64,000 nucleotides of DNA from Ophiura sarsii (lineage: Eukaryota > Echinodermata > Ophiuroidea > Amphilepidida > Ophiuridae), in the NCBI GenBank assembly GCA_035610835.1, contig CM069446.1, forward strand, positions 1,875,001-1,939,000, in the 5' to 3' direction. The notes under the pieces are model-generated. The model was not told the DNA's origin, ran no database searches, and saw only the letters and a program-made list of their open reading frames with translations. A program made the translations under genes and the position numbers. Positions within the stretch are counted from its first letter, which is position 1. Each line of letters starts with the position of its first letter. Shown one piece after another: positions 32,401 to 60,135 of this stretch.

Positions 32401-32401
32401 T

Positions 32402-35921: not shown

Positions 35922-38224
35922 ATGACTAATCGTGAGGTTCGAGACCTGCAAGGCTCTCTTTCAACAAGTGAAGGGCAAGCTTTCTGTGGCTTAGTTGATG
36001 GTCGGAAAACTTCACGCCGTAGAGCTGCTGATCGTGAATCTGAGATGCGAGAAAAGATAGGAGGTAGCAGGAAGAAAGTAAAGGTGTATGGTGCAAGTAC
36101 AAGCCAAGCTGGACCGTCAAATCCTTTGACATCTTCCGATGATGATGATTCACTTGATCCATTTGGATTTGTAGCAAGTGTGCGGAGAGACGGCAATGTT
36201 GATGATGATGATGATGATGATGATGACGATGACGAGGACTACGAGGCAATGGATGAAAGTGACCAATCCCATGATGACTATGAGGATGCAACAGACTCTC
36301 ATGAAGATGATATCCAGGAAGAGGAAGACCATGACTCTCTTGAAGATGACATCCAGGAAGAGGAAGACCATGACCCTCATGAAGATGACGTCCAGGATGA
36401 CTCTCAGGATGACCAGTCTAGTCAAGGGGAAGACCAACCCAGAGCTGAAGCCCCACCCAGAGCTGAAGCCCCACCCAGAGCTGAAGCCCCACCCAGAGCT
36501 GAAGCCCCACCAAGGAGACGACGACGACGAGGCACACAATTCCTTGATCCGTTCCCTGAGAATGATCCTGATAAGGCACCAAGAAACATCAACCAACATC
36601 GTGCACCAGAGGCTGGAGGTTGGTCTAGAAATCTAACAAGACTGCCAGTGCGGAGGTTTGAAGGAAGTGGACCACCAGGACCATCATTTGCTATGACACC
36701 TCAGATGAGACCGGTTGATTTCTTCTTCCAATTCTTCAGTTTACATCTCTTTGAGATGATAACTGAATGGACCAGTGCCAAGCTGGCTGCTGCTGCGAAG
36801 TTACCGACCACTGTTGCTGAGATCCGTGCATGGTTTGGCATCCATATAATTATGGGGATCTGCAAACTTAACAACTCCAGAGATTATTGGTCAGATCATC
36901 CAGGACTCCACAATGAGCTCATTTGCAAAACAATGAAGCGGAATCGTTTCGACACTCTTTCACAGTTTCTCACTTGCTGCTCCCCCGAGGATGATTTGTC
37001 ACTGATGCCCGAAACCACAGCCGAAGAAACATCCCATAAGTACAAGGCACAGAAGAAACACCCAATGTGGCCAGTGAAAGATGTTTGGAACGAAGTCCTC
37101 CAAAATTGCCAGACCAAATACCACTGCCTCAGAGAGCTTGCCATCGATGAGGCGATGATTCGCTACAAAGGGTGCAAAGCAGTGGCACACAGATTTTTCA
37201 TGCCCAGCAAGCCCATCAGAGTTGGGTTTAAGATTTACGCCATGGCAGAGAGTGCGACAGGATTTATGTGTGGTTTCCGCACACACATAGTGACCACGCC
37301 ACCAACAAAGATCATAGAGCTTACCATGGATGTTGCAAGACCCATTTTTGGCCGATTTCACCACATCTTCACCGACAAATTGTATACGTCTGTGAAATTG
37401 GCCCAACAGTTAGCTGAAAACTGCACCTACATCACCGGGGCCATCAAAACAGCTGCCAAGAGTCTACCAGCCTCCCTGAAAAAAGCCACAAGGATCTTCA
37501 AAGAGATGCACAGAACAAGAAGAGGAACATATTATTGCCGGCAACTAAAAAAGGAGATGATCTACGCACTATTTAAAGACAGCAGTGTCGTATCAATCCT
37601 GTCAACAGCACACAGTGGGTTCAGAAACAGAGCAACAGACTTCCTGAGAAGAACCTTCAGCGTGGATGGCATTGCCCGCAGGACAGAGCAAGAAATTCCA
37701 GCTCCTCGATGTGTCATTGATTATACAAAACATATGGGAGGTGTGGATCGTGCCGATTAATTAAGATCCTACAACACCGCAACCCGAAAGAGTCAACTCT
37801 GGTGGAAACAAGTCATGTTCTTCTTGATTGATATATCCAGAGTGAACTCCTGGATATGTTACAAAACCTTCAAGACCATCACAAATCCAGCCAACATACC
37901 CATCGACCTATCAGACAGCGAAGAGGAGGAAGAGGTGGAAACCTGCAAATCTCCGAAACCCAGACACTCAATGTTTACGCTGGATGTAGCGATGGGCTTG
38001 ATTGACGGGTTTGCAGAGGGAAGCAAATTATCCAGACAACACAGAGATGCCCAACCTGTTGGCAGTCACAATATGAAGCATGTCCTTATCAGGCATGACA
38101 CGTGCAATACATGCAGGCAATGTGTCATCGATAAAAGAAAAACAGCGAGTGGCAAGGCAGTCAGGTGCAGGACTGGATGTGAAGCGTGTGGAGTACGCCT
38201 TTGCCAGACGAACTGCTTCAAACG
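35922..38224 (+). pseudogene. piggyBac transposase exon 1, nonsense-mutated
   Basis: The first ATG is at 35922. The N-terminus is basic, then has a long Asp/Glu-rich tract (residues about 70-170) and four RAEAPP repeats. The DDE_Tnp_1_7 domain follows: RPVDFFFQFFSLHLFEMI, LAIDEAMIRYKG (first Asp, about 409), HIFTDKLYTS (second Asp, about 485) and KHMGGVDRAD (last Asp, about 609). Immediately after GGVDRAD is TAA at 37758-37760 where the family has Gln (CAA to TAA is one change). The same frame then runs on through LRSYNTATRKSQLWWKQ and a C-terminal Cys-rich zinc-binding domain (CNTCRQC...CRTGCEACGVRLC). The transposase excises and inserts DNA at TTAA. This copy is probably dead unless the stop is read through. 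Confidence 0.92.
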
Positions 38225-43384: not shown

Positions 43385-46347
43385 TCAATCCTAGCAGGTG
43401 GCCAAATTCGGCCCCTGATAAAGTGGGCAAACATGGCCACCAAGACAAAATGCGTAATAAATTCACTATTTTTCATGTTTGAAACTCAAAACAATTGTTC
43501 CAATGGAATAAAAATCTGTTGGGGAAAGGTTTAAGTTTGATTTCATGTTTGAATTAAGCAAATTATGATGTTTGTTGAAGAGATGAAGAGCAGTTGGTGA
43601 TTTTGGTGTTGGGAGGCTTGATATCTCCCAGCACTATATCTGGGGGAGCTCACTAGCCAAAATGATGTCATAGGTACTTGTAGCCAATTAAATACAAGGG
43701 GTGTGTGAGGGGTGTGTCCGAGACATCCACTCAGCATCAAGCAAAAGTTTTGTCTATTGTATAAAAGTTTTAGTAGTGATGGGCACAACGGTACCATAAT
43801 GATTTTTGTGATAGAAATAGGTGGAGTGTATACTCTCATCCCTATTGAATTGTGTATGAATATTGATGTATATCAAGGGGAGTATGTGGCCAATGATATG
43901 CTGGGTTTCATGACAACCAGTTATGCATGGGTTAGGGACAACCAATCAGCTTTGAGAAAAAAAGTTTGTGGATATCCTAAAATAGTGATGGGCTAACTTT
44001 TATTTGTTCTCTCTCTCTTTTTCTTTCTTTTTCTTTCTTTTTGGGATTTTTGAAGAATTATTTAGATATATTTACTGTCATGAGTGTGGATTAGTTTTTT
44101 TGGGGTGTTTTTGTGTTGATATATTTTTGTTTTGGGTGTGATTATGTTGTTTTAATGGCTTTTTTAAAGGTATTTTATTGTTGTTTTCTTGTTCAGTTTG
44201 TGTGTTTTTTTAGTTTTGTCTATATTAACTTTATTTATTTATTCATTAATTTATTTATGTATTTACTGTTTGGTGAATTATTTTTTAAACATTTATTTAC
44301 TTGTTTATTTATCAATGTTTTTCTTTTCTTTTATTGTTTTAAGTGTTATGGGGGTGGGGTCTTGTGAGTATTCTAGTAGATTTGGGGACAATCTTGTGCT
44401 TCTTGGCTTGTTTGTTTCTTTTTGTTGTTTCTTTTTCTTTGTTTTTCTTTCGTTTTTCTTGGGGTGGGCTGTGGGGATTGTCTTTTTGTTCAGGTGTGGG
44501 TGGGCTGTTTGTTTTTATCGGGTAGGGGGTATTGTCTTTATCCGGGGGGGGGGGGGGGGGGGGTCTTTTTCTGGATAATGGGTGCTGGGAAAAATCAAAA
44601 ATCCTTATTTTATTCTAGGTTGTTGTTTTTTCTCAAGGGGGGGGGGGGTATTGTATTTGCTTTTTATTGATATCATTTTCTGGATATTAGGTGCAGGGAA
44701 ACAGCTTCTAATATGATTAATTTCATAACTTGTGGAGGGGATGTTTGTTTGGTGGTGGCTGATGTATGTAATTAGGATTATTGCTCTTTTTGTGTTCAAA
44801 TTGGTCTTTATTAGCTACAAGAAAATGTCTTCCTTAGCTTTTTGTTATGAACCAACATTATGTCACCTTCATGTTGTATACATACCTTTTGATGGTGTAT
44901 TGGTAGAGTAAAATGAGAGGGGAATAGAATCTGCACCCCACCCATTTCTCTGCTGGAATTCCTTGACCATGTCTACACCAATCATGTTTGAAGCCAAATT
45001 AGCCATACTGAGATGTAATGCTTTATATTTGAATCTAGTAAAATAATGTGATGGTAGAAGATGTTGGATCAGTGTGTGCAGATTGGAGCATTGATGTGTA
45101 GTGTATGATGGCAGGTTACCAACTGACTGGCCATGTGGCATTTGTGTAACTATTGGGCAATCTTGCTTAATCCCATACACCTGGCATGGTTGCTTTTATT
45201 ATGCAAATTATAATTCAATGCATGAGCTTTTACCAGGTATCTTGTTTACTAGTTCAGTTCACCTGTATTTCAAAGTTGCTATTGTTCATATGAATGTCCA
45301 TTGAATATACCTTTCTTGAATCAAAGGCGTGGTCATCTGTACATGTACTAGTATGTTTGTATGATGCAATATATAGCTAGTGGCCTTGATCAGCTGGGTC
45401 ATAACAGGACTAGCCACACTATTTACTCAGCTGAAAGTGTATTCAAACCATGGCAAAAACTAAGCGTGTAGCACCTAGGCATAACTTGAGGAGCAATGCA
45501 GGAAGGGGCAAGGTAGGCCAACCAGCCCAGCCTCATTCTAAACGACAATGTTCATGTAAAATTCATGAATACACTTTGAGGCTTTTATATTTTTCTCTGA
45601 TATTACAAAATCCAAGTGAATCCAAGTATTTATGTTTTGAATTTGTTGCTGTTGTAACAGCATAATAACATGCTTTTTTTGTACATGTATGTAAGTCCCA
45701 TTTCTATCAAATGTTTAAAATAAACTTTCAATGAAATATCTTGATATTTGGAGGCCCAAAATGACTGACATTTAATTAATTTTCCAACAAAACATAAAAT
45801 ACTTTTTGGACGTTTCACAAAATGTTTAGGTATTGAGGATTTCCGTTTTGTTAATGTTAGAGCACTTTCAATGAAAGTTTGAAAATTATATTACAAACAT
45901 TACAAATATTTTGGCCAAAAATGACTGAAATTGCATCATTTTTCTGGTAAAATGCAACCCAATTGTTTTCAAGCGACACTAAATATTTTGGTATGGAGTT
46001 CAGATATCGATATAGGAAGGATAGAAGATGCCATTTTGTGTGTGTGAGAGCACTACTTTTGGATTAACTGTAAATACAGGAAAAATGTCTACTTGCCACA
46101 AAATGACTGAAATTTCATCATTTTTCTGGCAAAACGCAACCAAGAATTTTTTTGAAGCGACACGAAATATTTAGGTATTGAGTTAAACAATTGATATATG
46201 AAAGGTAGAATATGCCATTTTTTGTGTGGAAGCGCTACTTTTGGATTAACTGTAAATACTGGCAAATATGCCCACTTAGCGGCCATATTTGCCAGTGCAC
46301 TGGCAAATTTGCCAGGGCTGGGGAATTCGGCCACCTGCTAGGAATGA
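43385..46347. mobile_element. 2.96-kb TA-flanked DNA transposon
   Basis: The ends are TCAATCCTAGCAGGTGGCC and the inverse of GGCCACCTGCTAGGAATGA, with TA outside each (43383-43384, 46348-46349). Removing it rebuilds the target sequence seen at about 7146. The interior has AT-rich T/G stretches, a G run of 20 (44544-44563) and small frames, but no recognised transposase. A frame at 45450 begins MAKTKRVAPRHNLRSNAGRG and then meets a possible donor (AAGGTAGGCC). It is probably non-autonomous. Confidence 0.7.
45750..46265. repeat. About 175-bp tandem repeat, three copies
   Basis: AAAATGACTGAAATTNCATC followed by ATTTTTCTGG, and AGCGACAC(T/G)AAATATTT, recur in order near 45760, 45930 and 46100. 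It lies inside the TA-flanked transposon. Confidence 0.75.
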
Positions 46348-46756
46348 TATTGATCCATCGGTACAATACGGTCGACTATCCAACCTGCGCATGCATCCCC
46401 CAATTGCTCTACCGGTAATCGATAATGTACGAAAAGCGCAAAAATAAAACCACCACGATAATTTCAGCTTTAGCAAAATTTAAGTTTTATTAGTTACACT
46501 ACAGTTAGTTAGCCTAGGCTACTACTTGCATAGAAGAAGTAGTGCACGGTTTATTCCGTACGGGATGCCTAGCAAGATATCTATAGCCAAGTCTCACATA
46601 TTTTGCAGGGGTAAAAAGAAAAATAATAATTGTTTTGAAAAGGTGGAAGGATCGGGTAACATAACCATGATAGTACACGTAAAGGCAACGTAAAGCTGCC
46701 GAATTCAGCAACTGAATATTTATAACATTTCACATTTCACTCCACAAAAAAATTAC

Positions 46757-46913
46757 CATCTGCATCAGACGGGGAATCCGGTACTATGGTAACTCCTGCA
46801 GCATTGCGTCGAAATATTCTTTGATTGACATCCCTTGAAGCATTGAGAAAACCACCTTTCCCTTTCAAAATATGCACTGAAAATCGACCAAAAACATTTC
46901 GTACAGTCGCCAT
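46757..46913 (-). CDS. BCKDHB: BCKDHB exon 1 (start codon, transit peptide)
   Basis: ATG at 46913 opens 52 codons plus one base before donor GTAATTTT. The peptide MATVRNVFGRFSVHILKGKG then GFLNASRDVNQRIFRRN is rich in Arg/Lys/Ser and lacks acidic residues at its start, as expected of a mitochondrial targeting presequence. VTIVPDSPSDADG follows and leads in phase 1 into exon 2. The assignment rests on phase, position and presequence character, because this region is not conserved in the family. Confidence 0.85.
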
Positions 46914-49215
46914 TTTGTTTTCAGTGAAAGTGGTTAGCGCCCTCTACCTGTTTTAGCGGTGTTTGTGGTTCGCAGATTTATCGACTCAAGGGGGACAGGC
47001 GCGGCGTTATATAGATTTAAAATTACAAGTTAGACATTACCCTCAACAATAATTATTGCTTTGACATGTGTCAGAGGCAATTATTTATATCAAGTGACAT
47101 GAGCATTAAATGTAACCATACATTGGGCAATACGTCGTGTAAATAATATAAAAACATTAGTAACGCCAATAAAATATGTGATATATTTGATAATTTTTGT
47201 AATCGTAGGCCCGTATACCAAAAACGTGCTTGGAAAATGCGTTCTGAACATAAAGCATCACTAATAGCTTCATAAAGCCGAAAAGTCCATTAACATAACG
47301 TTGCCACATGCTGTATTCATAAGATGTTTATTGTTTTCACTCGATTTAAATCGATGTGACAGTGTGTTTTATTTTGTAAATGTATGTTGTTGTTTTGTTT
47401 TGTTTTAGTTGGATGCACCGTTTATTTTAAGCCACTCAGTTCCACTGATGTAAAATTGTATTTCCAAATAAATAAATAGGCTACATATATAAATATTTTA
47501 GCGAATGATTCTGTAAAACGCTACACCCTGCCAGTGCCATGTCATTCATATTCACTTTACCCTTCACACTTCGTTTTCTAGAAATAATTTAAGAATGGGA
47601 TACCAGTGCTATATCCCGTGCTTCATACGGGCAAGTGGGTTTGTGCCAAAGACAGCCTCAGCACTTCTAATATCTATTATGTCTTCAGTGTTGAAATCCT
47701 TTTCTTTTTATTGGCCCATTGCCTATATAATTAAGTGTGGAGGAACTACATGTATAGATTAGAAGATTTTAGCTTTCTACATACCCTATGGGACTCACAA
47801 AAGTAACATTGATGTTTATGTAAGTCATTTATGACAAACACAAGAAAAAAGTTTGATAAAATAAGAATATTGATAAAATTCATGGAATTCATCCTGTATG
47901 CCAGGTTATCTATGACCATGCACATGCAGCAAACTTAGGCAGGGAGGCCAATGCTCATTATGATAATAAAACAGTGGTCAGTATACAGTTTGATCATAAT
48001 CTATTGAGAACTTTTTAAAAATAATAACGTTTATAAATTGAGTACAGCTTAATGACAAATAATGTCCTCAAATTTGGGTGGAAATCCCATGACCATGATG
48101 ACGGTACAAAAAGGGTTAAAAGATAGCTATTATTCACTCCAGTGGCGTACTCGAATTTGAAGAGGGTAGGGGTATGTGACTTTGCAGTCTGAAAACAGGG
48201 GCTTACCAAACTGACACATCCTGAATTGTGGGTCTTATGAAACTGAGTGGCATCTTTGAAAATGGGGGTGGTGAACTGCCCAAGGTTGAAATGGGGGGTC
48301 TTGGCGAACTGTCCCCGACTCCCCGGGGATCTTCAGTCTCGAAAATCTTCGTGTGTATTAGTATAGATCCTTCTCGCAAGCAGACCATCTCGAGACTCGA
48401 AAACGATATGCTTAGAGAACGGGTCTACAGGATTTCTGGGCTAATGAACGGGGCCGCGGGGGATAACGCCCGAACGGGAGAGTTTGGATTGTATAGCTTG
48501 TGGAACGACTTATCAGTGAAATGAGATGCTTATGAGATAGTATACACAGTTTGTCAATTCATTTACACAGGAATATGAATGAGGGTTTATTCTTCTGAGT
48601 CAACACACTTTGTTTATCAAATAGGGTTTACATAGCCGTGAAAATAGTTCACACATGAAGCGGGTTCTTCCAAATTACACCGAAAATATCTCAACAGTAA
48701 CTATAGTGTGCTCTATTCATCGCCTTTGCTGACTTTACTCTTTTAATTAATCATGTTGTTAAATGTTTTGATATTGCACATTGCAAAGATTAACAAACAA
48801 TGACACTAAACAAAACTGAACAAACAAACAGAGCATGGACAACAAATTGCCTTGAAAACTATAAAGCAACAACAGTATTGCCCAAATGTATAAATTTTCG
48901 AACAGAGAGGGACTGATCTGGGACTGATGTTATTTACGTGTTAGCGCCCTCTGTCGAGTAATTTGAGAATACTTGACACCGTTTGTCGGCATTGCATTTA
49001 CTATCTACTGAAGATAGCACGCGTACGTGCATACGTTCGCAAAAAAGGCAAACGTTTTGTAACTGCGTGTATTAACCAAAGATATCCATATGTAACGCAA
49101 ATAAGAAACAAAGACAAAACACGCAACATTTCAACACTGTGCGTAAAAACACCGTGGAATGTGTATTGACATTCTGGATTGGGTTGCAAATAGCCGTCAC
49201 TATCACTATACTTAC
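46914..49215. other. BCKDHB 5' flank; nothing else recognised
   Basis: No clear TATA box lies just upstream of 46913. AT-rich DNA follows. The frame at 48228-48524 lies in a repeat-like sequence (CCAGTGGCGTACTCG nearby) and is not recognised. Confidence 0.4.
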
Positions 49216-49273
49216 CTGGCGCAGGGGTAGCTTCGATCACCAAGGAAGCTCCCCCAGGTCGAGGCCTTGCCAT
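49216..49273 (-). CDS. Candidate first coding exon, gene unknown
   Basis: ATG at 49273 opens MARPRPGGASLVIEATPAP plus one base, ending at a strong donor (CCAG|GTAAGTATAG). Upstream on the minus strand the DNA is CpG-rich with two CCAAT motifs (CGCCAATCGC, AGCCAATGCC). The donor phase (1) equals that of BCKDHB exon 1, so it could be an alternative first exon of BCKDHB (replacing the transit peptide) or the start of another minus-strand gene. No homology is recognised. Confidence 0.4.
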
Positions 49274-50230
49274 TGCACTTCGGCATTGGCTGAAGCCTGC
49301 GATTGGCGTTCGGGTGTACCGGCGTGCAATTGTCTACGCGAAGTCTACACTTGCGACTCATCTGCGCATGCTCACATGCCACACTTTTTACTTTCACGTT
49401 AATGTCGCACACCGTGACACTTGCAGTACACCGTAATGTTACTCCGGCACATCGTGGCGCTTCCAATACACCGTCATGGTATTGTTACGCGTAGTCTATT
49501 TTTAGCTTATCATACATATGCAGACGATGCCAGACATGTGCTTATTCACGAATATTCAAGATGTGATGAAAATAGATGAATACCGAATGTGACGAAAGGT
49601 TAACATGATGGATACAATTATTCTTGAACCACCTGAGACAAGTATCTTGCATTGGAATGGGTTTAAACATGTTTAATGAAAAGTTCCAACATGAGTGATG
49701 CAGGCCCCACCCATGTCACGGGTTCTCCCAGCCACCCGACGGTTTTGATTCTGAACCGAATTGACTTTTAAGTCATTGTCGGTGTTTTCTCTTTAGTATA
49801 CCTGTGCAACCACAGCTCATAACCTAAAATTAGTTAAAAAGTGGGGTGACGGGGATGAGACGTAACCTGAAATCTAATATCTAGAATTCCTGGAATGATA
49901 ATTAGTATAGTAGCTTTTATATCTTACTACGTGGTGATAAGAGGATGCATGGGATTACATGCTATCTTATGGAGGGGACTATTGGGGGTTATTTTATAGA
50001 TATTATTGTGGGTTTTGAAATATAGGGAGTGCTCTTAATTATATATTATAAAAGAGCATGTATAGTAGGGATAGGTGGGTTTATATTATTTTTATATGTT
50101 AAAGAGACATTTTATTTTCAAAATGATTGGGAAACATATGGTAGGAGCATAAGGGAAGAGTGCTGTAGAGTATTTAAATATATGGGGAAGAAAATATAAA
50201 AAATTATATTTTTTGTTTTTGAAGTTTGGT

Positions 50231-50246
50231 GGCTCTGAAAAGAGCC
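50231..50246 (-). terminator. Histone-type 3' stem-loop (distal, ORF1, left)
   Basis: The minus strand reads GGCTCTTTTCAGAGCC then ACCAAAC: a 6-bp stem, a UUUC loop and the 3' ACC flank. It is about 120 nt beyond the first stem-loop of ORF1. Confidence 0.85.
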
Positions 50247-50350
50247 TTCTTAGGAGTGTATAGAATTTTATTTATTTATAAGTAAATAATGGGAAGATGC
50301 ATATTTGTTTAGAACATTTGTTCATTTAAACTCTTTTTGGAAGGTGGGGT

Positions 50351-50366
50351 GGCTCTGAAAAGAGCC
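50351..50366 (-). terminator. Histone-type 3' stem-loop (proximal, ORF1, left)
   Basis: AAACGGCTCTTTTCAGAGCC then ACCCCACC begins 23 nt after the ORF1 stop. A purine-rich CCAAAAAGAG lies about 12 nt downstream of the stem, where histone pre-mRNAs carry the U7 snRNA-binding element. Confidence 0.9.
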
Positions 50367-50389
50367 GTTTGTGCTGCAATAGCGAAATA

Positions 50390-51280
50390 TTAATGCCGTC
50401 TTGTTTCTTGTCTCCTCTGGTTTGTAGACTGGAGGGATGGGCCCGGGTAGGTACTCATAAGAGGCATCGGGCGTGTGTTTCTCGGTGTTTCTCGGTGCTT
50501 TCTTGGTACCGCCTGGTATGGTGCTTTACGTTTCCTTGAAGTTGCTCTGTCGTTATGAGCTCTCGCCCTTGATGCCGCTTTCCTGACGATCTCTCTTTCT
50601 AGGATCTCCTTCGCCAGCTCCAATTCTTGTGGTGGGCACTCCATTTGAACTCTCCTTCTCGCCTTCTGTTCAGCTTGGTTGCATTCTGCTTTACAGGTGG
50701 GTATTACGTTGGTGGCAAGATCATTAAAAAGGATAGATAAGATCTTGTTGTTGTTGGCAGTATCTGCCTTTTGGACTTCTATCTGGGCTATGACCGAGAA
50801 AGAAAAGTCGCCTCCTAATGTAGGCAGGTGACGGTTGGTGTCTAGTGATTCAGAAATTTTGGAAGAACCGTCTATGACAGTTTGTAGTTGAGCTTGTCTA
50901 GATTCTAGACTTGCAAGGTGGGAGTAGTTTCGCTCTACCGTCTTAACAAGGTTGGCAACAAATTTAAAAGTAACAGAGGAAAGGCGTTTCTGAATAATAG
51001 ACGGTATGGTGACATCGGCGCTCGTTTGTTTTGATGGGATAATTTGTGAGTCCTGAATTTGGTATTGATTGGATAAATTTGGGGAGAAGGACTGATCAAT
51101 CAGACGTCCTTTGGGAGATGGAGAAGGTTTGAGAGGAGATGAAGGTGATTTGGTGAGGTCCATTTCTTCTGAGCTGGAGGCGGAGCTGGAGGCGGAGCTG
51201 GAATCTTCTGGCTGCTTTCTGGTTGGTTTCTTCTGTTTGTTGCGGCGGCTGAGTTTGTTGTGGCGAGCTGGAGTTGACAT
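50390..51280 (-). CDS. PLE ORF1, gag-like basic protein (left copy)
   Basis: 296 residues. The N-terminus is Lys/Arg-rich (NKLSRRNKQKKPTRKQ), followed by a Ser-rich stretch and a Pro/Ser segment with SPSPKGR. Residues about 95-235 have alternating hydrophobic and charged residues that could form helices or a coiled coil (IIQKRLSSVTFKFVANLVKT, LELAKEILEREIVRKA). The C-terminus is Arg-rich with RKRKAP, a possible nuclear localisation signal. No zinc knuckle is visible. It is probably the nucleic-acid-binding partner of the RT. It is translationally identical to the copy at 55746-56636 and followed directly by histone-type stem-loops. Confidence 0.85.
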   Translation of the reverse strand: MSTPARHNKLSRRNKQKKPTRKQPEDSSSASSSASSSEEMDLTKSPSSPLKPSPSPKGRLIDQSFSPNLSNQYQIQDSQIIPSKQTSADVTIPSIIQKRLSSVTFKFVANLVKTVERNYSHLASLESRQAQLQTVIDGSSKISESLDTNRHLPTLGGDFSFSVIAQIEVQKADTANNNKILSILFNDLATNVIPTCKAECNQAEQKARRRVQMECPPQELELAKEILEREIVRKAASRARAHNDRATSRKRKAPYQAVPRKHRETPRNTRPMPLMSTYPGPSLQSTNQRRQETRRH

Positions 51281-51326
51281 CTTGTTGTTGGTTGAGAGAA
51301 CACGGTGTTGACTGTAGAGTAGACAC

Positions 51327-51342
51327 GGCGGGAATGAATTGG
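51327..51342 (-). promoter_or_regulatory. E2F-like site and CCAAT upstream of ORF1 (left)
   Basis: The minus strand has ACCAATTCATTCCCGCC: a CCAAT box 3 nt from TTCCCGCC (E2F-like), about 50 nt before the ORF1 start. The duplicate is at 56683-56698. Confidence 0.45.
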
Positions 51343-52058
51343 TAGTATGATTATGGGGGTTTCTTATGCAGTTATTGCGGACGTGCGAGAAATAGGTTAT
51401 GTCTGTAACTTTCTCGGTGGTAGAGTTTGGCGAGATTTGGCGAGATTCGCCGTTGGGAAAATTTTATCGTAGAGATGCACTCGGACGTCGGTGAAAATGA
51501 ATATTATCGTCCATTTTGTATTTGGTGGCGGATGTGGGATCGGGTTTTCTTTGGATATGGATAATGTGTTATATTTGGAGGGATTTGAGGGTGGAAATAG
51601 GTGTTATTATGTGGAGTATTTGTTTATTCCGTCGTATGTGAACGGGGGTATATACTTATATTTTAGAGATCTTCATGTCAAGTTCTCTGTTTAAAATAGG
51701 TATGGGTTGAGGGATAGTTATATTTGAATAGGGGTTTTAGGTACAGGGGATATGTATTATAAGGATGTTATTATGTGGAACTGAGTGGGGGTGATGCTAT
51801 CTTTGATGGGAAACAAACCAATTAAAGTATTGTATAGAGGGGTGGGTAGGGTGGAATTATTATATTCCATAGGAGGGTAAGAACAGTCTATAAAGTATTA
51901 AGTATTTAATATTTATAGGGGGAGATGTAAAATATATAAAATTTTACATGTGTGTCATAATTAAGGATAGATGAAGAAAATGAGGGTAAGTTGAGGGGTG
52001 TTAAAATATTAAATTATTAACGTATATGTAGGTTACTAGGTGTTAGAGCTGTGAGCTA

Positions 52059-52101
52059 GCGAGACTAGTTTCTGGGTCGCTCAAACCCGTCTTCAGTCGC
52101 C
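52059..52101 (-). ncRNA. Hammerhead ribozyme, type I-like (left)
   Basis: On the minus strand: GGCGA, core CTGAAGA (fits CUGANGA), stem II C-GGGT/ACCC-A with loop TTGAGCG, GAAA, CTAG, TC, then TCGCT. Stem I is GGCGA/TCGCT. Helix III is only C-TA-G, but ACTAGT is self-complementary, as in PLE hammerheads thought to act as dimers. The basal stem II pair is a C-A mismatch, so activity may be reduced. Predicted cleavage is after GTC. Confidence 0.75.
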
Positions 52102-52282
52102 TTGTAGAAAATAAAATAAGTTAATTAAACTTTTGAGTTGCTCTGGGTGGGTGGTACTTGGGAGTATATATATATTCATTCTATGCGTACACTTATTATT
52201 GTATGAAATAAGTTGTGTCGTTATGAATGAGATCGGTGAAGTTATGGGTCGTTCTTAAATAATGTTCAAGTGGAGTTATGGT

Positions 52283-52298
52283 GGCTCTGAAAAGAGCC
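52283..52298 (-). terminator. Histone-type 3' stem-loop after the RT ORF
   Basis: CAAAAGGCTCTTTTCAGAGC-C then ACCATAA starts about 68 nt after the RT stop codon. The stem and UUUC loop are perfect. The truncated upstream PLE copy begins inside this stem (homology ends at 57642). Confidence 0.9.
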
Positions 52299-52366
52299 TT
52301 TTGACATGTTGTCCATTTTTGGTAGGACTATTTATTATAGAATTGTTTTAGAAAAGAGATAAGGAT

Positions 52367-54505
52367 TTATGGTGTGGCAGTATCAACTGTTTCACCATTG
52401 TCTATCTCGGGATCTTCTAGAATAATCATGTCTTGGGGGTGGTGTTGATTGAAATCTATAAACTGTTCGTAGGATCGGGTGTAAAAATCATTGAAACCTC
52501 TGCTCTCTACTTCTAGGTCTTGTAACATCTGAAGTGTTGGAGAGCCTGAGCGTGGGTTATTTGAAACCGTATCAATATTTTGGTAGTTCGATTTCGGGAG
52601 TTTAGCTTTGACTAAGCTATCATTTAGATTCTTAGCTCTGCTATATGCTATAATGGGGGTGTCGGGGAAGATGTTATTAAGGATGGGATCTTTAGAGATA
52701 ATATCCCAGTGTTTGATGAGGGCTTTTTTGATGTGTTTACTAGAAATATGGGGATAGTATTGTGATTTGAAGACCAGTGGTATAGTATTATCATGTGTCT
52801 TCTCTGCTATGTAGTGTGTTCTGTTGGTGAAATTCACGCCTTTTGAGGCTGATGTAATTTCTGATTGGGTATAACCTCTTTCTAAGAGTTTCTTGAAGAA
52901 TACGCTCTTTTTGTCTTCATAGGATTTGGGATTGCTGGAGTTTCTGACGTATCTTATCAGTTCTCCTTTGATAAATCCTCGGAAAACATTTGGGCTGTGG
53001 CATGAGGATCTCTCTAGATAACAATATGTTTCTGTGGGTTTTGTGAAACATTTGATGTCTAGGATATTAGATTTCATAAACCTTTCTCCTTTATATATGA
53101 CTAGGTCTAGAAATTGGATTTCTGTGTTAGAGGCTTCATAGGTGAATTTGATGGAGTCATGTAACTCATTTATTTGTGCGGTGAATTGTTTCAATTCATC
53201 CATGGTGCCTTCCCATGCTATGAATGTATCATCCATGTACACGAAGAGGGATTTGATTCTGGGTTCTGAATCGTATATTTTTTGTATAAGTTTGTTGACA
53301 ACTAAGCAACTAATACTAGGGCTTGATCTTAAACCCATGGGGGTGCCTGAGGTTTGGAGAAAATATCTGCCGTTAAATTCAAATGCATTGCGGTAGAGTA
53401 TTAATTTGAGCAATTGGCTCATGTGGTGTAGTCCGGGGATCGGTGGGTTAATAGAATTAGCTTCAAGATTTGCCAGGGTTTCCATGGCTACTTCATAAGC
53501 TTCTTCTTGGGGTACTGAGGTGAACATGCTTTTAACATCAATACTTCCTAGTATGATATTGTTTGCGAGTATAAGGGTTTCTATCTTTCTGATTGTGTCG
53601 GCCGTGTCTTTCAGATAGAAGGGAGATTTTTGGACGGTTGGGAGTAAATATTTGTCTACGAATTCTGAGATTCTGTTAAGGGGACTGCTTACTGAGGATA
53701 CCACTGGTCGGCCTACAAATTTTGAGCCTTTCGGTGGTATTTTGTGTACCTTAGGAAGCATGAAAAATACTGGTGTATTCTTCTCGAGATTCTCATATGG
53801 GTCTAGGTATTTGGAAAGGGGTTTATCTATTTCTTTAGACAAATACATTTCGTGTATCACCTCGTTTATCATTTTGGCAGTGTCGGGAGTCATATCATAG
53901 TCTAGTTCTATGTATGATTTGGGATCGCTTAGTTGTCTGTAGCCTTCTAAAATATAGTCTTTGGTAGACATAACACAGATACCTCTCCCTTTATCATACC
54001 TTTTAAGGATGATATTAGGGTTGGTTTTCAGGGAGTTGATTGCTTTTAATTCTGTCTTATTCATATTAGGTTGGACAGTTTTTATGGGGATGTTGGAGAA
54101 TTCTATTTTGATGGTTTCGAGGTAGTCCTCTAGAGCGTGGTTATAAGTTGGGTTTGGGTTCCATGTCGATGGGTTGCGGAATTTATGTTTAGATTTCCAG
54201 CCTTTGATATTGGCTATGTATCTAATTCTCATACTTCTAGTAAGGATTTGTAGTGATAACATAAGGGTTCTTTTAGTTGGTTTGTTGGGTGTCGGGATAT
54301 AGTTAAAGCCTTTCCCTAGTGCTAGGATTTCATCGTCGGACAGTATATAGTCCGAGAGATTCATGATGAAATTACTCGCTTTGGAGATAAGGTTTTGACG
54401 TTTAGACTTTCTAGTAGCGGATCTTTTAGATCGGAAGGAATTCTTTTTCCATTTGTTTTTATGTTTATTCCTATTTTGGGATGGCTGTCTAAAACAGCGT
54501 GGCAT
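52367..54505 (-). CDS. PLE reverse transcriptase (ORF2), no GIY-YIG
   Basis: 712 residues, uninterrupted. The N-terminus is very basic (residues 10-37). RT signatures of the Penelope/telomerase-related class: DKG at 171-173 in RYDKGRGICVM, then KDYILEGYRQL; LPKVHK at 250; GRPVVSSVSSP at 265; SIDVKSMFTSVP with the first catalytic Asp at 323; TSGTPMGLRSSPSIS at 385; YMDDTF at 423-428 with the catalytic pair; FLDLVIYKG at 465; and the thumb FRGFIKGELIRYVRNSS at about 508. The C-terminus after residue 640 is acidic and has no GIY-YIG endonuclease or Cys motif, and none is seen N-terminally. It would prime on existing 3' ends or rely on host nicks. The intact frame suggests recent activity. Confidence 0.93.
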   Translation of the reverse strand: MPRCFRQPSQNRNKHKNKWKKNSFRSKRSATRKSKRQNLISKASNFIMNLSDYILSDDEILALGKGFNYIPTPNKPTKRTLMLSLQILTRSMRIRYIANIKGWKSKHKFRNPSTWNPNPTYNHALEDYLETIKIEFSNIPIKTVQPNMNKTELKAINSLKTNPNIILKRYDKGRGICVMSTKDYILEGYRQLSDPKSYIELDYDMTPDTAKMINEVIHEMYLSKEIDKPLSKYLDPYENLEKNTPVFFMLPKVHKIPPKGSKFVGRPVVSSVSSPLNRISEFVDKYLLPTVQKSPFYLKDTADTIRKIETLILANNIILGSIDVKSMFTSVPQEEAYEVAMETLANLEANSINPPIPGLHHMSQLLKLILYRNAFEFNGRYFLQTSGTPMGLRSSPSISCLVVNKLIQKIYDSEPRIKSLFVYMDDTFIAWEGTMDELKQFTAQINELHDSIKFTYEASNTEIQFLDLVIYKGERFMKSNILDIKCFTKPTETYCYLERSSCHSPNVFRGFIKGELIRYVRNSSNPKSYEDKKSVFFKKLLERGYTQSEITSASKGVNFTNRTHYIAEKTHDNTIPLVFKSQYYPHISSKHIKKALIKHWDIISKDPILNNIFPDTPIIAYSRAKNLNDSLVKAKLPKSNYQNIDTVSNNPRSGSPTLQMLQDLEVESRGFNDFYTRSYEQFIDFNQHHPQDMIILEDPEIDNGETVDTATP

Positions 54506-54641
54506 GTTTTTAATAGTACCGTATTATACTTCGTATTATGCGGTCTATATATGCGTATAGGAGTGGGATTGATGATACCACAACAATTAGTTGTAGTGTG
54601 GAATTTAGTGAATAAAATAGGCATAAAAACTCTTTTGTGGT

Positions 54642-54657
54642 AGCTCTGAGAAGAGCT
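54642..54657 (-). terminator. Variant histone-type stem-loop (TCTC loop) 1
   Basis: AGCTCT-TCTC-AGAGCT then ACCACAAAAGAG: a 6-bp stem, a loop fitting UYUN, an ACCACA 3' flank and a U7-type purine element right after. It lies in the leader upstream of the RT ORF. Confidence 0.65.
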
Positions 54658-54677
54658 TTTGTATACTCTTTTGTGGT

Positions 54678-54693
54678 AGCTCTGAGAAGAGCT
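54678..54693 (-). terminator. Variant histone-type stem-loop (TCTC loop) 2
   Basis: Same sequence as the copy at 54642, duplicated with its ACCACAAAAGAG flank at 36-bp spacing. The pair would define short transcripts from the CCAAT promoter. Confidence 0.65.
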
Positions 54694-54878
54694 TTTTGTA
54701 TGTACCTTTTTAATGTAAAAGGGCTGCTGTAGTACTAGAAGTCTGTAGTCTTTTCCTTTGTTGATTCGCTGGTTGAGTAGACGGAGCGGTGTTGCTTGTG
54801 TATACACGGAGCAGTAGAGTGATAAATGAGGCTCTTGTTGTGGTTACGGCGGTATCCTGATGTTGCCGGTCTTTTGTG

Positions 54879-54933
54879 ATTGGCTATGAAAGCTGGCTTC
54901 GTGATTGGTCACGAAAGCGGGCTATGTGATTGG
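54879..54933 (-). promoter_or_regulatory. Three CCAAT boxes at 25-bp spacing
   Basis: CCAAT lies on the minus strand at 54929-54933, 54904-54908 and 54879-54883, each in the context CCAATCAC (NF-Y type) except the last (CCAATCACAA). Exactly 25 bp separate neighbours. An ATTTATC at about 54820 could serve as a TATA-like element. They lie about 375-430 nt before the RT start. Multiple CCAAT boxes are common in histone promoters. Confidence 0.6.
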
Positions 54934-55586
54934 TTGGGATTCGGTAGGGCAGTTCTTTGGATAGTTTTTGCCTTTATGATGGCGTAGTCCTTGTAGTATT
55001 ATATACTTTAGGCGTTTTGGGTGTGTGTGTGTAGGATCCTATAAATTCTGAGATATAGATAACTAGGGATTCATCGAAAAGACCTGTAAGGGTCAAAACA
55101 CGAATTCTATACGTCCGCCGCACATCGTTCTCAACCTTTTTCTAGTATTTATAAATAAATAATATAGGTCGGTTGAGAAATAGTCAAAGTTAAAAAGTGG
55201 GGTGACGGGGATGAGACGTAACCTGAAATCTAATATCTAGAATTCCTGGAATGATAATTAGTATAGTAGCTTTTATATCTTACTACGTGGTGATAAGAGG
55301 ATGCATGGGATTACATGCTATCTTATGGAGGGGACTATTGGGGGTTATTTTATAGATATTATTGCGGGTTTTGAAATATAGGGAGTGCTCTTAATTATAT
55401 ATTATAAAAGAGCATGTATAGTAGGGATAGGTGGGTTTATATTATTTTTATATGTTAAAGAGACATTTTATTTTCAAAATGATTGGGAAACATATGGTAG
55501 GAGCATAAGGGAAGAGTGCTGTAGAGTATTTAAATATATGGGGAAGAAAATATAAAAAATTATATTTTTTGTTTTTGAAGTTTGGT

Positions 55587-55602
55587 GGCTCTGAAAAGAG
55601 CC
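55587..55602 (-). terminator. Histone-type 3' stem-loop (distal, ORF1, right)
   Basis: Duplicate of 50231-50246: GGCTCTTTTCAGAGCC then ACCAAAC. Confidence 0.85.
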
Positions 55603-55706
55603 TTCTTAGGAGTGTATAGAATTTTATTTATTTATAAGTAAATAATGGGAAGATGCATATTTGTTTAGAACATTTGTTCATTTAAACTCTTTTTGGAAGG
55701 TGGGGT

Positions 55707-55722
55707 GGCTCTGAAAAGAGCC
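55707..55722 (-). terminator. Histone-type 3' stem-loop (proximal, ORF1, right)
   Basis: Duplicate of 50351-50366, 23 nt after the ORF1 stop, with the same CCAAAAAGAG downstream. Confidence 0.9.
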
Positions 55723-55745
55723 GTTTGTGCTGCAATAGCGAAATA

Positions 55746-56636
55746 TTAATGCCGTCTTGTTTCTTGTCTCCTCTGGTTTGTAGACTGGAGGGATGGGCCC
55801 GGGTAGGTACTCATAAGAGGCATCGGGCGTGTGTTTCTCGGTGTTTCTCGGTGCTTTCTTGGTACCGCCTGGTATGGTGCTTTACGTTTCCTTGAAGTTG
55901 CTCTGTCGTTATGAGCTCTCGCCCTTGATGCCGCTTTCCTGACGATCTCTCTTTCTAGGATCTCCTTCGCCAGCTCCAATTCTTGTGGTGGGCACTCCAT
56001 TTGAACTCTCCTTCTCGCCTTCTGTTCAGCTTGGTTGCATTCTGCTTTACAGGTGGGTATTACGTTGGTGGCAAGATCATTAAAAAGGATAGATAAGATC
56101 TTGTTGTTGTTGGCAGTATCTGCCTTTTGGACTTCTATCTGGGCTATGACCGAGAAAGAAAAGTCGCCTCCTAATGTAGGCAGGTGACGGTTGGTGTCTA
56201 GTGATTCAGAAATTTTGGAAGAACCGTCTATGACAGTTTGTAGTTGAGCTTGTCTAGATTCTAGACTTGCAAGGTGGGAGTAGTTTCGCTCTACCGTCTT
56301 AACAAGGTTGGCAACAAATTTAAAAGTAACAGAGGAAAGGCGTTTCTGAATAATAGACGGTATGGTGACATCGGCGCTCGTTTGTTTTGATGGGATAATT
56401 TGTGAGTCCTGAATTTGGTATTGATTGGATAAATTTGGGGAGAAGGACTGATCAATCAGACGTCCTTTGGGAGATGGAGAAGGTTTGAGAGGAGATGAAG
56501 GTGATTTGGTGAGGTCCATTTCTTCTGAGCTGGAGGCGGAGCTGGAGGCGGAGCTGGAATCTTCTGGCTGCTTTCTGGTTGGTTTCTTCTGTTTGTTGCG
56601 GCGGCTGAGTTTGTTGTGGCGAGCTGGAGTTGACAT
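55746..56636 (-). CDS. PLE ORF1, gag-like basic protein (right copy)
   Basis: 296 residues, identical in sequence to the product of 50390-51280. In the RNA unit running from one hammerhead to the next (57424 to 52068), this is the ORF1 that precedes the RT, giving the usual PLE order ORF1-ORF2. Its own stem-loops lie between it and the RT. The two ORFs may therefore be expressed from separate mRNAs, with the CCAAT promoter serving the second. Confidence 0.85.
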   Translation of the reverse strand: MSTPARHNKLSRRNKQKKPTRKQPEDSSSASSSASSSEEMDLTKSPSSPLKPSPSPKGRLIDQSFSPNLSNQYQIQDSQIIPSKQTSADVTIPSIIQKRLSSVTFKFVANLVKTVERNYSHLASLESRQAQLQTVIDGSSKISESLDTNRHLPTLGGDFSFSVIAQIEVQKADTANNNKILSILFNDLATNVIPTCKAECNQAEQKARRRVQMECPPQELELAKEILEREIVRKAASRARAHNDRATSRKRKAPYQAVPRKHRETPRNTRPMPLMSTYPGPSLQSTNQRRQETRRH

Positions 56637-56682
56637 CTTGTTGTTGGTTGAGAGAACACGGTGTTGACTGTAGAGTAGACAC

Positions 56683-56698
56683 GGCGGGAATGAATTGG
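56683..56698 (-). promoter_or_regulatory. E2F-like site and CCAAT upstream of ORF1 (right)
   Basis: TTCCCGCC and CCAAT on the minus strand, duplicate of 51327-51342. Further up, TCTCGCCAAATCTCGCCAAA (about 56785-56805) gives two weaker E2F-like cores. Confidence 0.45.
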
Positions 56699-57414
56699 TA
56701 GTATGATTATGGGGGTTTCTTATGCAGTTATTGCGGACGTGCGAGAAATAGGTTATGTCTGTAACTTTCTCGGTGGTAGAGTTTGGCGAGATTTGGCGAG
56801 ATTCGCCGTTGGGAAAATTTTATCGTAGAGATGCACTCGGACGTCGGTGAAAATGAATATTATCGTCCATTTTGTATTTGGTGGCGGATGTGGGATCGGG
56901 TTTTCTTTGGATATGGATAATGTGTTATATTTGGAGGGATTTGAGGGTGGAAATAGGTGTTATTATGTGGAGTATTTGTTTATTCCGTCGTATGTGAACG
57001 GGGGTATATACTTATATTTTAGAGATCTTCATGTCAAGTTCTCTGTTTAAAATAGGTATGGGTTGAGGGATAGTTATATTTGAATAGGGGTTTTAGGTAC
57101 AGGGGATATGTATTATAAGGATGTTATTATGTGGAACTGAGTGGGGGTGATGCTATCTTTGATGGGAAACAAACCAATTAAAGTATTGTATAGAGGGGTG
57201 GGTAGGGTGGAATTATTATATTCCATAGGAGGGTAAGAACAGTCTATAAAGTATTAAGTATTTAATATTTATAGGGGGAGATGTAAAATATATAAAATTT
57301 TACATGTGTGTCATAATTAAGGATAGATGAAGAAAATGAGGGTAAGTTGAGGGGTGTTAAAATATTAAATTATTAACGTATATGTAGGTTACTAGGTGTT
57401 AGAGCTGTGAGCTA

Positions 57415-57457
57415 GCGAGACTAGTTTCTGGGTCGCTCAAACCCGTCTTCAGTCGCC
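57415..57457 (-). ncRNA. Hammerhead ribozyme, type I-like (right)
   Basis: Exact duplicate of 52059-52101 (offset 5356). It marks the 5' side of the RNA unit that contains ORF1 and the RT. Confidence 0.75.
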
Positions 57458-57642
57458 TTGTAGAAAATAAAATAAGTTAATTAAACTTTTGAGTTGCTCT
57501 GGGTGGGTGGTACTTGGGAGTATATATATATTCATTCTATGCGTACACTTATTATTGTATGAAATAAGTTGTGTCGTTATGAATGAGATCGGTGAAGTTA
57601 TGGGTCGTTCTTAAATAATGTTCAAGTGGAGTTATGGTGGCT

Positions 57643-58880
57643 TTTTTAAAAAGTGGGGTGACGGGGATGAGACGCAACCTGAAATCTAATATCCAGAATC
57701 CATGAGATACTAAGAGATATTACTATAAAACAACAATCAGTTGTTGAAGGATATCAAAGTGTCATGGACGGGAGCCACTAACAACTATCAATATTGTTAA
57801 GTTATAAAAGTATAAGTCATGCTGGGGTTGTGTAAGGGACTACAAGGAATGGGTGTGTGTGTGTGGGGGGGGGGGGGGGGGGGGCGGGAGAAGATGTATT
57901 TACAACTTGACAAATGTTTGTTTATTCCGTATTATAGAACAAACGGGATATGTTTAAAAAGTGGGGTGACGGGGATGAGACGCAGAATGTGTGTGGGGGG
58001 GGGGGGGGCGGGAGCGGGAAAAGATATATTGTAAATATGACAAATGTTGGTTTATTCCGTATTATAGAACAAACGGGATATATTTAAAAAGAGGGGTGAC
58101 GGGGATGAGACGTATCATGTGGGGGTGGGAGGGGTGGGGCGGGAGAAGATGTATTTTAAATTTGACAAACGTTTGTTTATTCCGTATTATAGAACAAACG
58201 GGATATTTTAAAAAGTGGGTGATGGGGATGAGACGCAGAATGTGGTGGGGGGGGGGGGGGGGCGGGAAAGATATATTGTATATATGACAAATGTTGGTTT
58301 ATTCCGTATTATAGAACAAACGTGATATATTTAAAAAGAGGGGTGACGTGTATGAGACGTAGCTTGTGGGGGGGGGGGGGGAAAGAAAATATATTTTTAA
58401 CAAGACAAATGTTAGTTTATTCCGTATTATAGAACAAACGGGATATATTTAAAATGAAGGGTGACTTGTACCAGGTGCTCGTGATTTGTGAAAGTAAGGT
58501 TTATTCCGTATCGGAATTATAAGGGGTACCAGGCGCTCGTGATTTGTAAAAGTTAGGTTTATTCCGTATCGGAATTATAAGGAGGGTGGGGGGGGGGGGG
58601 GGGTTGACGGAGATGAGATGTAACCTGAGATCTAATATGAGGAATTTATCCTGGGGTAATAAAGAGATATTTCTAACACAACAATTAGTTGTTGAAAGAA
58701 GTAAATGTATTTATTTTACAGGGAGTAAATTTTACAACTATGAACATTTGTTCAGTTATAAGAGTGTATTAATATAAAATGTCATGTTGGGTTTGAGTAA
58801 GGGACAAAAAGGACGGGTATAGGTGGTCGGGTGATTTGTGAAAGTTTGGTTTATTCCGTATCGGAATAATAGTTGGAGAT
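57643..58880 (-). repeat. Array of PLE 3'-end fragments with G tracts
   Basis: The PLE left-terminal text AAAAAGTGGGGTGACGGGGA/TGAGACG returns at about 57649, 57957, 58086, 58211 and 58332, and diverged near 58604. It alternates with a G tract of up to about 20 (57867, 57996, 58240, 58367, 58587), GGGAGAAGATRTAT and GTTTATTCCGTATTATAGAA/CAAACGGGATAT. The unit is about 125 bp. A second short repeat (GCGCTCGTGATTTGT...TATTCCGTATCGGAATTATA) follows at about 58475-58580 and 58830. Glycine-rich frames are artefacts. Confidence 0.85.
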
Positions 58881-59072
58881 GGTAAAAGTGATATTATCAC
58901 TCCTAGAAAATGGACAAAATCAACCAATTGATATAAAAATATAAGGTGAACAGCTTCAACAGATTAGATATCTGTTAATAGTAAGAATGGGAAGTAGCTG
59001 GTAGTAAATCGAACAAACTGTAATTGGACTGCTCTTCAAGATAATAACATCTTTAAAAGCAAAGAAGTAGCC

Positions 59073-59121
59073 GGCAATATATGCATATTTCGGGAGCGGC
59101 CAAACTCCCTCATCAGTTGCC
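59073..59121 (-). ncRNA. Hammerhead ribozyme, canonical core
   Basis: On the minus strand: CTGGCAA, CTGATGA, stem II GGGAG/CTCCC with loop TTTGGCCG, GAAA, TATGCATA, TA, TTGCCGG. Stem I CTGGCAA/TTGCCGG has seven pairs with one G-U. All core positions are canonical. Helix III is the palindrome TATGCATA (tiny hairpin or dimer). Cleavage is predicted after ATA. No RT was found next to it, so it marks a separate, diverged PLE end or a retrozyme-like element. Confidence 0.85.
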
Positions 59122-59412
59122 AGGGACCATGCCTAGTGATTCGGTATTATTATACTCAAATCTAAGGCGAGGTTAACGTGCTTTCGCTTGGTATATTAAC
59201 CCGTGTTATGTATGACAGTTGTATTTACATAGTCATATCTACATAGACCGAAACATGCCGCGTGGAACCAGTATTCGGTTGTGAAGCCTTTCCACGGTTG
59301 CATTTGGAATGTAGGTCTAATGCATTTGGGGAGCCATTCTAGATAGAGAATATGGCAGCATATCGACTTTGGATAATTGTGTCGGGTTATGCTCAGTGTA
59401 GGTCAATCTACT

Positions 59413-59460
59413 ATATAAAGTCGGGGTGTCAATTCCCCTCATCAGCTAGACCTTCAGCGA
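59413..59460 (-). ncRNA. Degenerate hammerhead-like remnant
   Basis: Minus strand AGGTCTAG, CTGATGA, GGGG/CCCC stem II, but GACT where GAAA is required. Flanking AGGTCTA/TTGACCT can pair with one mismatch. It is probably inactive and related to the ribozyme 340 bp away. Confidence 0.45.
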
Positions 59461-59689
59461 TATGTTAGTAACAACATATCTCGGGTCGTGTATACAAGTT
59501 ACTAATACGTAACTATATCGTTGGAGGGGATGCTGTTCAGGATAGAAATCATATAACACTCCAGTCTAAGGATTCGACTACAACATTACAGGCAAATCAT
59601 GCCTACTACGTGTATACTCAATCCTGACTGTACTGTGGTCTGCGGAAAGGCATGATATTGAAAATGGGAAACTTTTAACGGATATCTAA

Positions 59690-60135
59690 ACGTTTTTTCT
59701 TTTCAGAAAAGTTTCAATTTTTTAAAACGTCTAGTTGTGTGGGGGTGTCATGTTATGCAAACAAAATTGTATAAGATTGTGAAAATTGCCACTGTTTCTG
59801 AGATAATCGTTTTGGAAAAATGAGACAGTTTTTGGAAAAGTAAACATGATACTGAACAGGAGAAAGTTTTTGTGAGAAGCCAAGCATTTTTTTTCACAAG
59901 TTTGTAAATTTCTCAAAACGATTAATCCTGTGCGGAGTTATGCAAACAAACTTGGTCTAAGTGGTATGGACCAAGTGCCACTTTTTCTGAAAACATCATT
60001 TTGTGGAAATGTGACTGTTTTGAGAAAAGTAAACATGATATCGAAAATGTAAAACTTTCAATTGGTAGCAAAGCGTTTTCTCTTTTCATAATCGTTTCAA
60101 CTTTTCGAAACGTCTAATTGTGTGTGAAGTTATGT
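59690..60135. repeat. Degenerate repeat, about 200-bp unit
   Basis: The sequence TTTTCAAAACGNCTAATTGTGT/GNNGTTATGCAAACAAA and GAAAAGTAAACATGATA recur two to three times in the same order. It is non-coding. Confidence 0.6.

Follow-up and report, generated by a model that had tools for sequence, protein, structure and literature searches.

In a 64,000-nt stretch of chromosome 6 of the brittle star Ophiura sarsii (G000:C6:1875001-1939000, the window, to which all positions refer), a Penelope-like element (PLE) carries, directly behind its first open reading frame (ORF1), a hairpin, an ACC flank and a purine-rich site in the layout of a metazoan histone mRNA 3' end. We consider it probable, judging from sequence comparison, that the ORF1 hairpin, ACC and the downstream site CCAAAAAGAG act as a working histone-type 3'-end signal, which forms part of the ORF1 module in a PLE clade without a detected endonuclease and whose processing would be leaky.

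The window contains five perfect copies of the hairpin GGCTCTTTTCAGAGCC and two variants, all of them on the coding strand of the PLE and read on the minus strand (Table 1). A pattern search allowing up to three mismatches returned seven matches, at the minus-strand coordinates given in an earlier note on this DNA, compared with a mean of 0.38 in dinucleotide-shuffled sequences (0 of 100 shuffles reached seven). The five perfect hairpins exceed the gathering score of 34 set for the Rfam model RF00032 (Histone3), with values of 39.8, 39.8, 37.7, 36.6 and 36.6 bits, and the two variants fall below it (24.6 and 23.4 bits). The distances reported previously are likewise correct, with 23 nt between the ORF1 stop and its hairpin, 68 nt between the stop of the reverse transcriptase (RT) ORF and its hairpin, and 120 nt from start to start between paired hairpins. 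However, the hairpins at 55587 and 55707 are duplicates of those at 50231 and 50351, generated by a 2455-bp terminal repeat with one mismatch, and the variants at 54642 and 54678 lie within identical 32-nt direct repeats with a spacing of 36 bp, so that the number of independent hairpins is four: the two stem-loops after ORF1 (SL1 and SL2), the one at the RT end and the variant ahead of the RT ORF. The motif AAAGAG is present 3' of SL1 and of the variants; it was not found in the 70 nt 3' of SL2 (50231) or of the RT-end hairpin (52283). Since both variants precede the RT ORF, with the closer of them 136 nt before its ATG, they terminate no ORF.

As proposed earlier, the combination of hairpin, ACC and U7-type site is of the histone type and goes beyond a generic hairpin. 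The histone genes of the host show the same layout. All four places fetched in regular arrays proved to be histone genes (H2B in L094 and L097, H2A in L095, H3 in L096), in which the stop codon is followed after 25-35 nt by a hairpin with AAAGAG, scoring 37.1-40.4 bits with Histone3. The likeness extends into the flank, as the hairpin is followed by ACCCTGTCTTCCAAAAAGAG in the L097 H2B gene and by ACCCCACCTTCCAAAAAGAG in SL1, with three differences in 20 nt. The element thus shares with metazoan histone mRNA 3' ends, including those of host H2A, H2B and H3, the 16-nt hairpin, the ACC flank, the AAAGAG purine site and the short distance from the stop, whereas it differs in placing this signal behind a retrotransposon ORF1, in having several hairpins per element and in being followed by more of the element, the RT included. 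Pfam detected no histone coding sequence nearby among the six of seven window ORFs of at least 150 amino acids that were scanned, and the earlier note was right to refuse the idea of a captured histone gene.

The signal is retained after ORF1 in strongly diverged relatives. L081, a locus found via its hairpin in which both frames are open, has an ORF1 stop, 22 nt, a hairpin (Histone3, 41.1 bits), CCAAAAAGAG and an RT ATG 99 nt past the hairpin. Its RT is identical to that of the window in 251 of 676 aligned residues (37%), or in 49% of codon-aligned nucleotides, whereas the hairpin and downstream site agree in 39 of 42 columns with one gap (blastn), compared with at most 31 in any 42-nt window of the RT. 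At E<=0.01, blastn aligns no other part of L081 with the element, except where the L081 hairpin matches further hairpins of the element. We further fetched 16 places with the signal, 12 of them outside histone arrays and all picked for holding it; in six of the 12 (L082-L087), tblastn detects ORF1 similarity upstream, with frames that are broken or short in L084 and L085. Histone3 gives 39.5-42.6 bits for the hairpins at the ORF1 end in L082-L090, and upstream of one of these loci, L089, a 59% RT match is found at a distance of 1.9 kb. The spacer between stop and hairpin measures 23 nt in the window, 22 in L081, 17 in L098 (see below), 23 in L082, 30 in L083, 31 in both L086 and L087, 24 in L088, 21 in L090 and 20 in L089, where it leads to the first of two hairpins and the one with AAAGAG stands 54 nt further on. 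Both the AAAGAG site and its spacing are kept after ORF1 in the window family, in L081 and in the family with 46-49% ORF1 identity, and nearly kept, as AATAAGAG, in L098. Database relatives of ORF1 are P0123 and P0124, with 46% and 49% identity.

To sample copies without using the hairpin for the choice, we took one copy each from four families by RT position. The underlying RT search returned 64 matches, with scores for 63 of 2489 candidates, and these matches fall into families whose identity is about 94-100, 72-76, 55-60, 39-41, 38 and 36%. The 39% copy (L098) consists of ORF1, its stop, 17 nt, then GGCCTTTTTAAAGGCC, ACC and TTATTTTCCAATAAGAG, with the RT ATG 94 nt past the hairpin; the hairpin (38.8 bits) has two compensated pairs and is followed by ACC and CCAATAAGAG. 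The genome has 16 occurrences of the GGCCTTTTTAAAGGCC form (control, 0). It stands 114-135 nt upstream of the match in all six listed 39-41% RT matches that start at residue 6-13; the seventh listed match starts at residue 86. The 73% copy (L101) has an exact hairpin with ACCAAAAGAG before the RT (37.4 bits) and a degenerate one after it, and the 58% copy (L100) has none in the 491 nt before the RT and, after it, a sub-threshold hairpin with a 3-nt loop (17.2 bits). In the 36% family, located on C18, no ORF1 was seen in the 1.4 kb upstream of the RT and a histone-type hairpin stands on neither side of it, so that the signal seems to be tied to ORF1.

The earlier note had staked its reading on the behaviour of other family copies, in which the hairpin is indeed kept and pairing-preserving double changes are present. 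We aligned 16 hairpins (12 from PLEs or PLE-like loci and four from histone genes), leaving out the degenerate L100 and L101, the duplicate at 54678, the near-identical L082 and L084-L086 and the unassigned L091-L093. Pairing is kept in 96 of 96 cells and double changes affect three of the six pairs in this set, most rows of which were chosen for exact sequence and cannot vary, and none of 500 shuffles reaches the covariation score. The double changes stem from two of the 16 rows, one from the window variant at 54642 and two from L098, and further pair types equal those in shuffles (3 vs 3.0).

The claim that hairpins terminate both ORFs is well supported for ORF1 and is not supported for the RT, whose end hairpin lacks AAAGAG in the following 70 nt and has only degenerate counterparts in L101 and L100. 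No hairpin after the RT was found within four mismatches in L081 or in L106, a further copy of the 39% family. On account of L100, L101, L106 and L081, we discarded the notion that the two ORFs are equally marked by hairpins at their ends. The RT-proximal hairpins vary more and may serve as backups or bind SLBP without leading to cleavage.

Based on this arrangement, we infer the following sequence of events. SLBP would bind the hairpin and the U7 small nuclear ribonucleoprotein would pair with AAAGAG, with CPSF73 cutting between the hairpin and the U7 site to release a short, non-polyadenylated ORF1 mRNA. Transcripts escaping this cleavage would run through the RT to the 3' end of the element and serve as both RT mRNA and template. 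Leakage would then set the ratio of ORF1 to RT, and the timing of ORF1 supply would be tied to cells in which SLBP and U7 are abundant, in S phase or in oocytes. AAAGAG located in the downstream element pairs in mouse extract with CUCUUU of U7, and its replacement sharply lowers cleavage (PMC7026596). H2AFX provides a precedent for mixed 3' ends (PMC7807067); it differs in being a host histone gene with one ORF and no read-through to a second. Leakage is called for by the layout itself, because 519 nt separate the ORF1 hairpin from the 3' end of the element and the RT is located further on, so that some RNA, at least the template, must escape. It is unlikely that the element relies exclusively on non-polyadenylated RNA, given that the template must read through and that AATAAA motifs are present in the element.

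Several observations weigh against a working signal of this kind. The template would be lost if cleavage were efficient, which obliges us to assume leakiness, and AATAAA motifs stand between SL1 and SL2 and ahead of the RT hairpin. The lack of an Rfam match for host U7 carries no weight, since the control of this search found the RNA in 0 of 14 genomes. L082-L090 were picked for the exact signal and thus provide no independent proof of conservation; moreover, three of the 12 places outside histone arrays (L088-L090) show an Arg-rich ORF end with no tblastn match to ORF1, and another three (L091-L093) show the signal without an ORF end nearby. Ten of the 16 places with the compensated hairpin are untied to a listed RT match, and the hairpin near the RT is degenerate or missing in L099, L100, L101, L103 and L106. 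Finally, a hairpin unrelated in sequence, TAGTATACCAATACTA, with ACC behind it, occurs in the C18 family 82 nt before the RT ATG (L099, 364-379), a place resembling that of the hairpins in L081 (99 nt) and L098 (94 nt); it received no Rfam call and is not followed by AAAGAG. Perfect hairpins with a 6-bp stem, a 4-nt loop and ACC, excluding the exact one, number eight in 626,264 nt (both strands of overlapping loci, with those of L098 and C18 included), and the C18 hairpin may therefore be a chance occurrence or a replacement. If it works, pairing and place may outweigh histone-type sequence.

The lack of AAAGAG in the 70 nt behind the hairpins at 50231 and 52283, half of the independent ones in the window, and the presence of hairpins 5' of the RT ORF (54642, 54678 and L102), where an RT end would be of no use, could mean that the hairpin merely binds SLBP, in the service of export, translation, stability or targeting to the histone locus body, while 3' ends form by ordinary polyadenylation, which the AATAAA motifs would suit. 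We regard this as unlikely, since AAAGAG and its spacing after ORF1 are maintained in the families named above, much as in histone genes. It is more improbable still that the hairpin is an RNA element internal to PLEs, involved in recognition by the ORF1 or RT protein, in packaging or in template switching, and only happens to look like its histone counterpart. Such a role would fit the occurrence of hairpins at several places in the element and in a second PLE lineage, the unrelated hairpin with ACC at the same place in the C18 family and the 5' edge of the upstream repeat, which lies inside a hairpin 3' arm like a reverse-transcription stop. However, other families preserve more than the pairing, namely the bases themselves, the loop and ACC, together with a U7-type site, and the PLE copies match true histone genes in their Histone3 scores.

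We give least credence to passive capture, in which a histone 3' end was taken up once and has hitch-hiked ever since without function. Its near identity to host histone signals, as seen for SL1 and the L097 H2B gene, and the thousands of copies in the host genome would be expected under this scenario, but the block has stayed near-identical while the RT fell to 49% nucleotide identity, and the independently sampled 39% family shows compensated changes.

The hairpin is by no means confined to the window family. Across the genome, there are 4714 copies of the exact 16-mer (2368+2346; none for the reversed control), and the full signal, defined as hairpin, ACC, 5-11 nt of any sequence and AAAGAG, is found 1961 times (control, 0), a number that includes an uncounted share of histone genes and of which about 100 places were listed. 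Grouped by their flanks, 100 exact hairpins sampled from the 4714, all on C1, comprise 80 of family A, nine of family B (a tandem repeat of ~324 bp), two in L014, two in L028/L029 and seven singletons. Family A corresponds, by eye and by tblastn in L023 and L017, to the 3' part of a PLE whose reading frame has a GIY-YIG C-terminus, and in these two loci the GIY-YIG-type frame stops ~170-270 nt before the hairpin, a placement indicating that a second PLE lineage carries it. In its common form, the hairpin of family A is followed by AGTAGGAAAGGG rather than AAAGAG, and many copies have an extra imperfect hairpin ~54 nt upstream. It is possible, although we put this forward only tentatively, that the clade without a detected endonuclease and this separate GIY-YIG lineage both use the histone mRNA pathway and that partial processing yields a ratio similar to that of Gag and Pol.

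The exact hairpin is present in family B (L012, L013 and L030), where L012 and L013 have it in both orientations; tblastn gave no matches to histones or PLEs there. Dispersed hairpins with a ACCCTATTTTCCAGAAAGAG-type signal and no ORF end nearby are found in L049 and L091-L093, in L049 among short repeats around CCAGTATCG..CGATACTGG. A LINE-type (long interspersed nuclear element) locus with hairpins 3' of its RT (L028 4625-4672 and L029 4976-5023, minus strand) was dropped, as the two loci share several duplicated kb and the hairpins possibly lie outside the LINE, which leaves their ownership doubtful. Similarly, the membership of the L018 hairpin in a nearby GIY-YIG-type PLE is not clear. 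No relatives were confirmed in viral contigs (P0001 and alignment A1) or in genome contigs (A1), and an exact 19-mer occurred nowhere in the viral contigs and twice in the genome contigs, both times in bacteria and by estimate at about chance level.

The window element has a PLE-type RT (RVT_1) and pseudo-long terminal repeats (pLTRs), as is characteristic of PLEs, as is the tandem arrangement indicated by the constant spacing of RT copies on C13 and C18, and it reads, on the minus strand, as a repeat with ORF1, a body with the RT ORF and a repeat with ORF1 again. Because its terminal repeats differ at one base, the insertion looks young. Pfam did not find GIY-YIG (PF01541) in the window RT (P0001); among 120 listed of its 140 homologues, some carry this domain, and the closest named relatives among the matches listed, from a protein database, belong to Amphiura filiformis, a species that contributes the relatives P0016, P0024 and P0029. 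In a tree of 90 RTs, built by a quick method and rooted at the midpoint, the window RT falls into a clade of 23 rows with a support of 100, and PF01541 is listed for none of the 21 database rows of this clade, which also includes L081. GIY-YIG-labelled rows and two bdelloid rows (P0097 and P0117) lie outside this clade, and within the whole tree the window RT groups with GIY-YIG PLEs. The element thus resembles canonical PLEs, with their RT and C-terminal GIY-YIG domain, in its PLE-type RT and terminal repeats, and differs from them in lacking a detected GIY-YIG domain, in its separate ORF1 and in the absence of a hammerhead ribozyme, which was found neither by Rfam (44000-60000, E<=5) nor by a pattern search (49601-57900). 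Hammerhead ribozymes in the terminal repeat are common but not universal among PLEs. L081 has hammerhead-like cores by pattern, CTGATGAG..CGAAAC (at 5318 on the plus strand, and on the minus strand in 5' repeats), none of which is called by Rfam. Endonuclease-deficient PLEs include Athena and Coprina, and Gladyshev and Arkhipova are said to have worked on such elements in 2007 (cited in PMC6431247). The window element shares with them the lack of an endonuclease domain, but the two bdelloid rows, which are not confirmed as Athena, fall far from its clade, and the window copy lies ~1.9 Mb inside chromosome 6, which is 79,407,082 nt long. Athena and Coprina are characterised by insertion at telomeric repeats.

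Both the class of element and the RNA signal are known, and their combination is probably new, as searches of PubMed Central, which does not cover subscription papers and preprints, brought up no report of a transposable element with a histone stem-loop. The histone stem-loop/U7 pathway has been held to be nearly private to replication-dependent histone genes. If the proposed signal works, a selfish element can take over this pathway, linking retrotransposition to S phase or early embryos, and a single transcript population would provide ORF1 message that is abundant and tied to the cell cycle, along with scarcer full-length RNA for the RT and the template, a new mechanism for the unequal expression of two ORFs. 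Thousands of hairpin copies might then draw on host SLBP, and the transcripts would go unnoticed in RNA-seq based on poly(A) selection. Annotation that relies on the hairpin by itself would yield numerous false histone genes in Ophiura sarsii.

Table 1. Features of the Penelope-like element and its hairpins in the window.
Feature	Position	Strand	Remarks
Whole Penelope-like element, terminal repeats, no endonuclease detected	49832..57645	-	delimited by the repeats and the RT ORF; 5' edge ~57645, 3' edge 49832
Upstream terminal repeat (pLTR), containing ORF1 and a pair of hairpins	55188..57642	-	2455 bp, 1 mismatch to 49832-52286
Downstream terminal repeat	49832..52286	-	
ORF1, 296 amino acids, upstream copy	55746..56636	-	
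ORF1, 296 amino acids, Arg-rich C-terminus	50390..51280	-	no Pfam match
RT ORF, 712 amino acids, RVT_1	52367..54505	-	GIY-YIG domain not detected
SL1	50351..50366	-	23 nt past ORF1 stop; 39.8 bits
CCAAAAAGAG, U7-type downstream element of SL1, AAAGAG core	50331..50340	-	
SL2	50231..50246	-	36.6 bits; 3' flank rich in A
SL1 copy in upstream repeat	55707..55722	-	pattern match and Histone3
CCAAAAAGAG downstream element in upstream repeat	55687..55696	-	
SL2 copy in upstream repeat	55587..55602	-	pattern match and Histone3
RT-end histone stem-loop	52283..52298	-	68 nt past RT stop; 37.7 bits
Variant stem-loop AGCTCTTCTCAGAGCT, then ACCACAAAAGAG	54642..54657	-	136 nt before RT ATG; 24.6 bits
Second variant stem-loop, sequence as first	54678..54693	-	23.4 bits

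The 5' edge of the upstream repeat (57640-57650) begins with AGCCACCATAAC, as if complementary DNA synthesis had halted on the hairpin. Beyond it, 57646-58660 contains several pieces resembling the 3' end of the element (AAAAAGTGGGGTGACGGGGATGAGACG), some of them in a tandem array of ~125 bp with G-runs, which corresponds to a head-to-tail arrangement of PLE ends. Near-constant RT spacing elsewhere in the genome points to tandem arrays, with 5165 bp on C13 (55.860-55.888 Mb) and ~6582 bp on C18 (1.871-1.932 Mb). A sequence similar to U1 small nuclear RNA, apparently shortened at its 3' end, lies 0.5 kb past the 3' end of the element (49208-49320, plus strand; 68.6 bits vs the Rfam cut-off of 69.5). 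The window also contains two adjoining ORFs on the plus strand (31847-34296 and 35916-37760), the second with RVT_1, and an ORF for a DDE_Tnp_1_7 transposase.

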